A stretch of DNA of 64,000 nucleotides, taken from the NCBI GenBank assembly GCA_003577165.1, contig QEUM01000013.1:1-64000 (forward strand). Reading direction: 5' to 3'. The position numbers were made by a program, and so were the translations under genes. The notes below the pieces were generated by a model. That model was given only the letters and a program-made list of their open reading frames with translations. It ran no database searches and was not told where the DNA came from. Source of the DNA: Armatimonadota bacterium (GTDB lineage Bacteria > Armatimonadota > Fimbriimonadia > Fimbriimonadales > ATM1). Of this stretch, positions 11,070 through 14,928 are shown piece by piece (the first letter of the stretch is position 1; every line of letters begins with the position of its first letter).

Positions 11070-12913
11070 TGTCGTCGGAGCGGAGGGCGTTTTGGTCGCT
11101 CACTCTGCTTGCTGTCGTCCTCTCCTGCGTTCCCGTGCTCGTCGGGATCGCATCCAAGCCGGAGGGGGGGCTTTACTTCGGCGTCCAGACGAACCTCGAC
11201 GATCATGCCGTCTACGCGGCGTGGATGAAGCAGGCGCAGGAGGGTCGGCTGCTCTTCGAAAACCGCTTCACGACCGACGATCAGTCTGGACTCACATTCC
11301 ACGCTTACTTTTGGGCGCTCGGCAACCTCAGTCGCGTGACCGGAATTCCCGTCGCGATGCACGTGGGCCGGATCCTGTTCGCCCTACTGTTCTGTGGGCT
11401 GCTTTGGCGAACGATCGGCCGGTACAGCGCAGACCTGCGCGCTAAGTCGGTCACCTACGGTCTCTGTCTTTTCGGCGCCGGAGTTGGGTGGGCGGTGTTC
11501 AGGCAGTACGGAGTGGACTCTCCCATCGACGTGTGGCAGCCGGAGGCCTTCACGTTTCCTTCAATTCTCACCAACGGACTGTTCTGCGTGAGTTTGTGGC
11601 TGATGCTCGTGGTGTGGAACGCGATTCTCGATTCGCGTGAGTCGTGGAAGCCCGTGCTGCCGGGCGCCCTGGCCGCCCTGTTCTTGACGAACGTTCACAC
11701 CTACGATATGCTCACCGTCGGTCTCGTCTCAGTGGGGTTCGTCGTGAGTTGCATCTCCTCGCGCACCGCGATCGGGATCTGGGCCCTTCGCTGCGTTGTG
11801 ATCGCATTCGGAGCATTGCCCTCGCTGGCGTGGCACCTCTATGTGCTGTCCGTTGACCCTGTGTTCGCGGAGCGAGCCGCCACATTCACCCCTTCGCCGA
11901 AGTTTCTTTGGGTGCTGCTCGGATACGCTCCCCTCCTGGCGCTCTCGCTTCTCCACTGGGGTCGCGAGCGATTGGCCTGCAGGTCTTACAACGTGGTACT
12001 GGCGTCGGGAATCGCGCTCCTATGCGTTGTGCTCTTCGTGCTCACGTCAAGCCCAGAGCCAAACAGATTGCCGCTGCAGTTGGAAGCCTGGGCTGTTCTG
12101 TTTCTCGCCATGTGCGCCTCGTGCTGGTTCTGCAAGACGGACTCGCCTGCTCGCTCCCTTCTATATGCGTGGATGGCGCTTGGCCTCGTCGTGATTTACG
12201 CTCCGGGGCTGTTTCAGAGGAAGTTGGCGATGGGGCTGCAGATCCCGATCTGCATCTCTGCCGGCCTTGCCCTCTCAGAAGTGACGCGACGATGGGCTTC
12301 CTCCAGATTCGTTCCCGTTGGAGCCGTCGCGATTCTGAGCCTGTCGAGCATTCTCTGGATTCGAAAGGAACTCTTCGAGATTCGAAACAACCTGTCGAAT
12401 ACGACACGCCACGTCGTGTATCTTGCTCCGGACGAAGAGGAGGTGCTCCGACGCATCGGAGAAGGAGCAGAACCGGGCATGTTCGCACTCGCGTTTCCAG
12501 GTGCGGCCGCGAGGGTTGCGGAAGACGAATACGCCTTGGCGATCAATGACTTGAATCCGTACCTGGCCGGGTGGGGGGGGATGAAGGTGTACGCAGGCCA
12601 CTGGAGCGAGACGCCGAAATACTCAGAGAAATACTCCCGCCTCGTGGAGGAGTTCTACCTTCAGCGAAGCGCGACCACGGAGTCGAGAGTGAGGTTCCTC
12701 GCGGAGGCTGCGCCGCGAGTGAGCGCTGAGGAGGGCGATTCTAAGATCGTGAATGAGGTCGACGCCTACGCGGTCATCCCGATCGGCGAGTTCGCCTCAG
12801 CCGTCGGCATCGCGCCGCTGGAGGAGTTCCTGGAGATTCCGGGCGCAGAGCGCTTGTGGACCGGGGCGTCCCTCGCGCTAATTCGCTGCAGAACGCCGGC
12901 GGCGATCAGGTAG
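11069..12913 (+). CDS. Polytopic membrane protein, GT-C glycosyltransferase-like
   Basis: The 614-residue protein has about 12 hydrophobic helices and a soluble C-terminal domain. Just after the first helix comes GVQTNLDDHAVYAAWMKQAQ, an acidic motif in the first periplasmic loop, where GT-C enzymes (polyprenol-sugar dependent transferases) carry their catalytic Asp. The last ~170 residues (YLAPDEEEVLRRIGEGAEPG) resemble the soluble domain of DUF2298/GT39-like proteins. Substrate unknown. It is the last gene of the operon and its 3' end overlaps convergent ispH by 8 bases. Confidence 0.6.
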   Translation: MSSERRAFWSLTLLAVVLSCVPVLVGIASKPEGGLYFGVQTNLDDHAVYAAWMKQAQEGRLLFENRFTTDDQSGLTFHAYFWALGNLSRVTGIPVAMHVGRILFALLFCGLLWRTIGRYSADLRAKSVTYGLCLFGAGVGWAVFRQYGVDSPIDVWQPEAFTFPSILTNGLFCVSLWLMLVVWNAILDSRESWKPVLPGALAALFLTNVHTYDMLTVGLVSVGFVVSCISSRTAIGIWALRCVVIAFGALPSLAWHLYVLSVDPVFAERAATFTPSPKFLWVLLGYAPLLALSLLHWGRERLACRSYNVVLASGIALLCVVLFVLTSSPEPNRLPLQLEAWAVLFLAMCASCWFCKTDSPARSLLYAWMALGLVVIYAPGLFQRKLAMGLQIPICISAGLALSEVTRRWASSRFVPVGAVAILSLSSILWIRKELFEIRNNLSNTTRHVVYLAPDEEEVLRRIGEGAEPGMFALAFPGAAARVAEDEYALAINDLNPYLAGWGGMKVYAGHWSETPKYSEKYSRLVEEFYLQRSATTESRVRFLAEAAPRVSAEEGDSKIVNEVDAYAVIPIGEFASAVGIAPLEEFLEIPGAERLWTGASLALIRCRTPAAIR

Positions 12914-13850
12914 CGCGCGTTGCCTGCGCAAGAAGGTCTCGCGGCGGTATGAAAGTCATCTCCTCCCGAATCGTCTCCAAGACCTCCACGGTCGCGCCTT
13001 CGTTTCCGGCCAGCAGTTCACCAACGATCGCCTCCACCGAATCTTCCGGCGTCGAAGCTCCGCTCGTAACTCCCACCACGGGGTAGTCATGCTTCCAGGA
13101 GGGTTGGACCTCGGACGGTTCCAGCAACAGGTGCGCTTGAGAGCCACAGGATTCGGCAACCTCCTTCAAGCGGTTCGAATTGCTGCTGGTCTTGCTTCCG
13201 ACGACGAGCACTAAATCGCAGCGCTTCGCAAGTTCCTTAACTGCATGCTGGCGATTCGTTGTCGCGTAACAGATGTCTTCCTTCTGGGGTGTCTCGAGAT
13301 GGGGAAACCGCGCGCGAAGTCTGTCCATGATTCGATTGACTTCATCCACGCTGAGCGTCGTTTGCGTCAGCACTGCAAGTTTGCCTTCGGGAACGGCGAC
13401 GTTCTCCGCCTCCGCTTCATTGTCGACGAGGAACATTCGATCGGGCGCTTCGCCCATCGTTCCCTCCGCTTCGACGTGTCCGCGGTGACCGATGTAAAGC
13501 ATGGCGTAGCCTTGCGATGCGTATCGGGAGGCCTCCCGGTGCACTTTCGTGACGAGAGGACAAGTGGCGTCTATCACTCTCAGCCTTCGCGCCTCGGCTT
13601 CGCTTCGGACCTGAGGGCTGACTCCGTGCGCGCTGAAGACGACGGTCGCTCCTTCCGGGATCTCCGACACGTCCTCGACGAAAACCACGCCGCGCTTCTC
13701 GAAACTGCGAACGACGTGCTCGTTGTGCACGATGGCGTGACGAACGTAGATCGGGGCGCCGTGCGCCCTGAGCGCAAGGTCTACGACTTCAATTGCGTAG
13801 GCGACGCCGGCGCAGAAGCCTCTCGGTGCGGCAAGGATGATGCGATCCAC
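12906..13850 (-). CDS. ispH: 4-hydroxy-3-methylbut-2-enyl diphosphate reductase
   Basis: This enzyme carries out the last step of the MEP pathway, giving IPP and DMAPP with a [4Fe-4S] cluster. At 314 residues it is full length. The three cluster cysteines are in APRGFCAGVAYAIE (Cys 13), DATCPLVTKVH (about 96) and EDICYATTNRQ (about 195). Also visible are HNEHVV with the conserved His, the IGHRGHVEAEG motif and VVGVTSGASTPE near the end. It is a single gene, convergent with the membrane-protein operon. Confidence 0.97.
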   Translation of the reverse strand: MDRIILAAPRGFCAGVAYAIEVVDLALRAHGAPIYVRHAIVHNEHVVRSFEKRGVVFVEDVSEIPEGATVVFSAHGVSPQVRSEAEARRLRVIDATCPLVTKVHREASRYASQGYAMLYIGHRGHVEAEGTMGEAPDRMFLVDNEAEAENVAVPEGKLAVLTQTTLSVDEVNRIMDRLRARFPHLETPQKEDICYATTNRQHAVKELAKRCDLVLVVGSKTSSNSNRLKEVAESCGSQAHLLLEPSEVQPSWKHDYPVVGVTSGASTPEDSVEAIVGELLAGNEGATVEVLETIREEMTFIPPRDLLAQATRAT

Positions 13851-13944: not shown

Positions 13945-14928
13945 CTATTTCTCGCCCAACTTCCGGGCGTATTCCATATCCTGGAGGAGCGCCATGCCCT
14001 TGTATCCCACGACTTTGTGCACTTCGGTTCCATCATTCTTGAGGAAGCGAAGGTCGGGGATGCCGCTCACTCCAAACTGTTGGGCGAGCCCGGGCTGACT
14101 GTCGGTGTCGATATGGACGAACACGTAGTACTTTGAATAGGCTTGGAATTCTGGAGTCGGGAACACCTCACGGATGTACTTCTGACAGAACCCTCACCAC
14201 ACGGCCCCGAAGTCCACGAACACCATGCGGTTCGTAGCCTTCGCGACTTTGAGCCCCTCCTCCAGGCTCTCGTACCACTTGCCCGCTTCCGCCGGTGAGT
14301 ACTCCACCTTCTTCGCCCCTGCGGGCGCGTTGAAGGTGAAGGCTCCTTCGGCGAACGAACCATCCACTTGGAGGTCCTTCGAGAGAACGAGCACTTCTTG
14401 CGGTCCGTTCGCACCAGGAATGCTGAACGAAGCCGCCCGCGCCAACCCGGTCTTGGTGTCGATGTAGAGCGACACCGTCTTCCCCTTCGCGTCTGCGGTG
14501 AACTTCACTTCGGATGTAGCGACTCCTGAGACGTTTCGCTTCGCTCCGAGGGTGACGTTCTTCGCGGACTTGAATTGGTCGGCGATGAAGAAAGCAGCCC
14601 AAGCAGCGACGTCGTCCTTCGACAGCCTGTCGAGGACGTCTTTGACGCCGCCGGGACGCTCGGTGTATTCATTCGAATCGGCGAAATACTCCCAGATCGT
14701 CTTGCCGTCCGTGACGAGGACGCTTGCGGGAGTTTCGATGCGAATCATCCCGTCTCGGCTGAACTTAAGACTGTAGTGCTGTTCAGCGGCTGGGATCTTT
14801 CGCACGGTGAAGTCTACAGACAGGGCCTTCGCCTTCTGTAGAGAGGCAACGTGCTTGGCGAGCAGGTCCGGCGCCGTGGCGCCCTGAACGCCAGCGAGCG
14901 CGACCACCGCCGCGAGAATCGTAGTCAT
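13945..14928 (-). CDS. Candidate selenoprotein: LolA-like domain fused to thioredoxin, with in-frame TGA
   Basis: One frame of 328 codons is interrupted only by TGA at codon 245 (14194-14196). Residues 1-16 are a signal peptide. Residues ~20-200 resemble a LolA/DUF2092-like beta domain (KIPAAEQHYSLKFSRDG). Residues ~225-327 are a thioredoxin fold: MVFVDFGAVW, then TGA, then GFCQKY, with the cis-Pro in SGIPDLRFL (Pro 291). The TGA sits exactly at the first cysteine of W-C-x-x-C, so reading it as selenocysteine (W-U-G-F-C) restores a redox motif. AGGAGGAGC precedes the ATG. Expected location is the periplasm. The alternative is a Cys-to-stop mutation. Two gene callers' fragments would be 14194-14928 and 13945-14166. 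Confidence 0.75.
14163..14196 (-). promoter_or_regulatory. SECIS-like hairpin after the in-frame TGA
   Basis: Folding by eye on the minus strand: ACA-U-CC (14177-14172), loop GUGA (14171-14168), GG-UGU (14167-14163). This gives five pairs with one bulged U and a loop that begins GU, 22 bases after the TGA. Bacterial SECIS elements (for example E. coli fdhF) share a short stem with a bulged U and a loop starting with G, about 16-37 bases after the codon. This is form-based evidence; no program was run. Confidence 0.5.

Follow-up and report, generated by a model that had tools for sequence, protein, structure and literature searches.

A 2026 review catalogued the selenoproteins of prokaryotes in 119 families and subfamilies, among them a thioredoxin with a UxxC motif and several thioredoxin-like fusions, and its Table 1 gives the selenocysteine (Sec)-containing thioredoxin (PF00085, UxxC) as experimentally verified (PMC13188914). 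The gene described here shares with that protein a thioredoxin fold and, as predicted, Sec in place of the first Cys of the CxxC motif; however, the known examples are thioredoxins proper, whereas in this case the thioredoxin domain follows a LolA-fold domain, which itself comes after a putative signal peptide. Likewise, the PF13098 (UxxC) thiol:disulfide interchange selenoprotein and TsoB (NF045694, a rhodanese/DsbD fusion) are thioredoxin-like Sec oxidoreductases, some of them fused, but the partner domain and Sec motif of the present fusion are different, and its score against NF045694 is far below the cut-off (30.9 bits against 805). The fold of residues about 20-209 is that of the LolA/LprG/RseB superfamily (PDB 4mxt, 3mha), although the solved structures listed match one domain of the fusion or the other, never both. 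The compilation contains no family with a LolA domain and does not name Armatimonadota (PMC13188914), and no paper on Sec in Armatimonadota or on a LolA–thioredoxin selenoprotein was found in the open-licence literature searched. The fusion very probably belongs among the thioredoxin-like selenoproteins, with an architecture that we did not find described.

The gene lies in the window, by which we mean the whole 64,000-nucleotide stretch of DNA that was analysed. The original prediction described a single frame with one TGA at codon 245 and 82 intact codons after it, and the coordinates and translation agree with this; the strand, which it left unstated, is minus. Read from 14928 to 13945, the frame encodes 327 residues followed by TAG, with a Shine-Dalgarno sequence (AGGAGG) immediately upstream of the ATG. 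Its only internal TGA is flanked by FVDFGAVW upstream and GFCQKYIREVF downstream and occupies the first position of the thioredoxin WxxxC motif (W-TGA-G-F-C). The features of the gene are as follows.

13945..14928, minus strand: gene for the predicted LolA–thioredoxin fusion selenoprotein, 327 aa, TAG stop, a single open frame when TGA is read as Sec.
14194..14196, minus strand: in-frame TGA at codon 245, where Sec is predicted as the first redox residue of W-U-G-F-C; TGA or Cys across homologues.
14185..14187, minus strand: Cys248, the putative resolving Cys of the U-x-x-C motif, invariant in alignment A1.
14056..14058, minus strand: Pro291, an invariant alignment column, which from knowledge of thioredoxins we take to be the cis-Pro of the fold.
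14872..14928, minus strand: predicted signal peptide, about residues 1-19 (hydrophobic N-terminus MTTILAAVVALAGVQGATA and low pLDDT over 1-15, by inspection).
14302..14874, minus strand: LolA/DUF2092-like domain, residues about 20-209 (Pfam DUF2092, 22.2 bits; Foldseek, 4mxt).
13948..14289, minus strand: thioredoxin domain (Thioredoxin_7 / Thioredoxin, 53.2 and 49.6 bits; Foldseek).

Calling the product a thioredoxin, as had been done, is correct for the C-terminal domain, which has W-U/C-x-x-C and the cis-Pro, but it is incomplete in that residues about 20-209 form a LolA-fold domain. In a Foldseek search against the PDB, the AlphaFold model of the fusion (mean pLDDT 90; pTM 0.70, which leaves the domain orientation uncertain) matched LolA-family structures first (4mxt, E 2.7e-11, TM-score 0.79 by target) and thioredoxins next. 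At the level of sequence, the Pfam DUF2092 match spans residues 65-209, and the LolA cut-offs were not reached (Pfam LolA, 17.5 bits against 23.6; TIGR00547, 24.6 against 112).

The original prediction read the TGA as Sec and looked to selA, selB, selD and a selC tRNA in the same genome as its check, and all four are there. The genome of the window (2.75 Mb in 23 contigs, 97.5% complete) yields SelA at 424 bits, SelB at 376 bits against a cut-off of 242, SelD at 355 bits against a cut-off of 125, and tRNA-Sec at 76.4 bits against an Rfam gathering score of 47; ARAGORN also calls the tRNA-Sec, with anticodon UCA. Furthermore, SelD has its own in-frame TGA in VDCAG-U-ASKLG (L066 1531-1533), which fits the UxxK position given for Sec in SelD (PMC13188914), and is therefore predicted to be a selenoprotein itself (CAGUASK).

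The homologues bear directly on the identity of residue 245. A search of 151 genomes placed the fusion across the order, and five genomes from the same family contain full-length homologues with 49-53% identity. Among the 36 distinct sites read, 14 have TGA (12 full fusions and 2 further thioredoxin-domain paralogues) and 22 have TGC or TGT, with no other codon, as foreseen in the proposal to compare Cys and TGA at this site; the site search demanded U or C, and an unfiltered listing of the motif gave the identical outcome. TGA stands at the same codon in 12 other genomes, in frames otherwise lacking an in-frame stop. The rest of the active-site motif is kept among the Cys and TGA homologues, W244, C248 and P291 being invariant in alignment A1. 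Across the 82 genomes with a full fusion, selA is present in 13/13 of those with TGA and in 39/69 of the others (Fisher p=0.0016), a value that is optimistic, as are the other p-values, in that homologues within clades share ancestry. A single-protein scan of genome contigs also placed a TGA at the site in a public record (L068), where the sequence is the same as in G002; its one further match was weak and LolA-only. Together, the Sec machinery, the restriction of the homologues to Cys or TGA and the recurrence of TGA in separate assemblies support the claim that the codon specifies Sec, and on this comparative sequence evidence we are highly confident in predicting Sec at codon 245 of an exported-type LolA–thioredoxin fusion.

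It is informative to view this pattern in light of the phylogeny and of the genomic position of the gene, for which the gene next downstream, conserved in the family, serves to identify the orthologous locus.

12906..13850, minus strand: ispH (tblastn).

IspH adjoins the fusion in L019, L020, L022 and L023, and at the ispH-marked locus in five genomes of the family the residue is predicted as Sec in L018, L020, L022 and L023 and is Cys in L019. A maximum-likelihood tree requires 6 Sec/Cys changes, at least 4 of them forced by well supported branches. Within the order, the repeated exchange of Sec and Cys in a single orthologous protein, with one case of Sec and Cys genes side by side, forms a natural series that lets one ask what benefit Sec brings to a thioredoxin and how the remaining residues of the motif adjust to it. 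The adjacent pair is found in G078 (L051), where a Sec copy at 815 adjoins a Cys copy at 2012 (minus strand), both being LolA–thioredoxin fusions; such an arrangement might permit switching with selenium supply.

Three other explanations of the TGA can be considered. The one that survives best, although we judge it very improbable, is that the codon is a real stop, so that the gene is either decayed or makes only a LolA-like protein of 244 residues, its thioredoxin part never being translated. Without recoding the frame does end at codon 244, where standard ORF calling ends the gene, and LolA-only paralogues occur in these genomes (for example G000:C22). Yet the 82 codons past the TGA are intact and include Cys248 and the cis-Pro, homologues at about 50% identity and below have TGA at this very codon in an otherwise open frame, and in one relative the copy beside ispH encodes Cys at that position. 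The recurrence of the TGA argues strongly against a stop, and the homologue pattern as a whole (Cys or TGA only, the link to selA, the switches on the tree and the ispH locus) makes decay very unlikely. It follows for annotation that a pipeline lacking a Sec model truncates the fusion at codon 244 and loses the active site.

Slightly less probable again is the reading of TGA as another amino acid, either Trp or Gly under an altered genetic code, or Cys incorporated in response to UGA. Cys is a functional alternative at this site, and the Sec machinery can insert Cys at UGA under selenium limitation. However, many long frames in the window, ispH among them, end in TGA as an ordinary stop, so there is no global reassignment; moreover, the genome has a true tRNA-Sec with SelA, SelB and SelD, and TGA fusions are restricted to genomes with selA. 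Finally, a TGC or TGT misread as TGA by sequencing or assembly error, which would have in its favor the Cys codon of many homologues as the presumed true codon, is excluded by the TGA found in 13 independently assembled genomes as well as in the public L068 record.

Given the preferred reading, namely Sec at codon 245, one would expect a SECIS-type hairpin just 3′ of the UGA to aid Sec insertion, and a candidate is present.

14163..14177, minus strand: candidate bSECIS hairpin (ACA-U-CC / GUGA loop / GG-UGU), with its apical G lying 22 nt 3′ of the UGA.

Partly by inspection, its GUGA loop and 22-nt spacing fit a bSECIS, and one U bulges from the stem. The best isolated hairpin of the gene has a predicted energy of -3.5 kcal/mol, and the 60-nt fold that contains the candidate (-14.1 kcal/mol) is unremarkable against dinucleotide shuffles (z -0.24); in a synonymous-codon randomisation, which preserves the protein and so provides a null for hairpin strength, the gene alone gives p 0.015. 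The Sec homologues carry a hairpin with an apical-loop G 3′ of the UGA, the loop usually 20-23 nt away, although 2/14 have none inside the tight range of loop positions. As a set, their hairpins are stronger than the synonymous-codon null (Wilcoxon p 0.002, n=14), whereas those of the Cys homologues are not (p 0.62, n=22). RNAalifold found no column-wise consensus structure, with pair counts not above those of shuffles, because the register of the hairpin shifts between species. The SECIS element that had been suggested is thus moderately supported, by the comparison of the Sec set with its null but not by the stability of this gene's own fold, which is no greater than that of shuffles; a SECIS hairpin here is likely but not proven, the support being comparative and weak from the gene alone.

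In the mechanism that we propose, the TGA at 14194-14196 would be translated as Sec by the genome's SelA, SelB, SelD and tRNA-Sec. The product would be an exported two-domain protein in which a LolA-fold domain, perhaps of the lipid- or lipoprotein-binding type, is joined to a thioredoxin with a Sec nucleophile in W-U-G-F-C. The combination of signal peptide, LolA-fold and thioredoxin domains points to a probably exported thiol:disulfide oxidoreductase, and the fusion is most likely a thiol:disulfide (selenol) oxidoreductase of the cell envelope, in which Sec245 would attack disulfides and Cys248 would resolve them. The specific role of an envelope reductase is somewhat more likely than not, with much less assurance than Sec itself, and electrons might come from the single DsbD-type transmembrane reductase of the genome, a DsbD_TM protein (C7) with a Thioredoxin_7 domain in the same frame.

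The residues between Sec245 and Cys248 also differ between the two forms of the protein. The proline of CGPC (window positions 14188-14193, codons 246-247) occurs in 0/12 Sec fusions and 19/22 Cys fusions (Fisher p 8e-7), but when the tree is taken into account there are four independent pairs on supported branches, about 3 concordant and 0 discordant (p 0.25). With only four such pairs, the association of Sec with loss of this proline is a lead and is unproven, and a counter-example to proline loss exists in another candidate of the same genome, which has UGPC.

That candidate is one of at least five more redox frames with an in-frame TGA in this genome, in addition to SelD: C13 (WUGWC), C1 (WUGFC), C10 (NUGGC), C16 (WUGPC) and C10:5377 (CUTNAR). 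The selenoproteome was sampled by family searches, so the count is a lower bound.

L073 1549: TGA redox gene with WUGWC.
L055 1756: TGA redox gene with WUGFC.
L058 2354, minus strand: TGA redox gene with NUGGC.
L059 1609: TGA redox gene with WUGPC.
L082 1603: TGA redox gene with CUTNAR.

These five are likely selenoproteins, and with them Armatimonadota joins the lineages with several predicted selenoproteins. An envelope thiol network of several exported thioredoxin-fold Sec proteins, comprising the fusion and the products of the WUGFC, WUGWC, NUGGC and WUGPC genes, is also a reasonable possibility, with motif and chalcogen perhaps co-tuned in the fusion; for this phylum the literature searched records no use of Sec. 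By eye, signal-like N-termini are seen in C13, C10 (NUGGC) and C16, and the sequence 3′ of the TGA in C1, C10 (NUGGC) and C16 is predicted to fold into hairpins of -9 to -10 kcal/mol.
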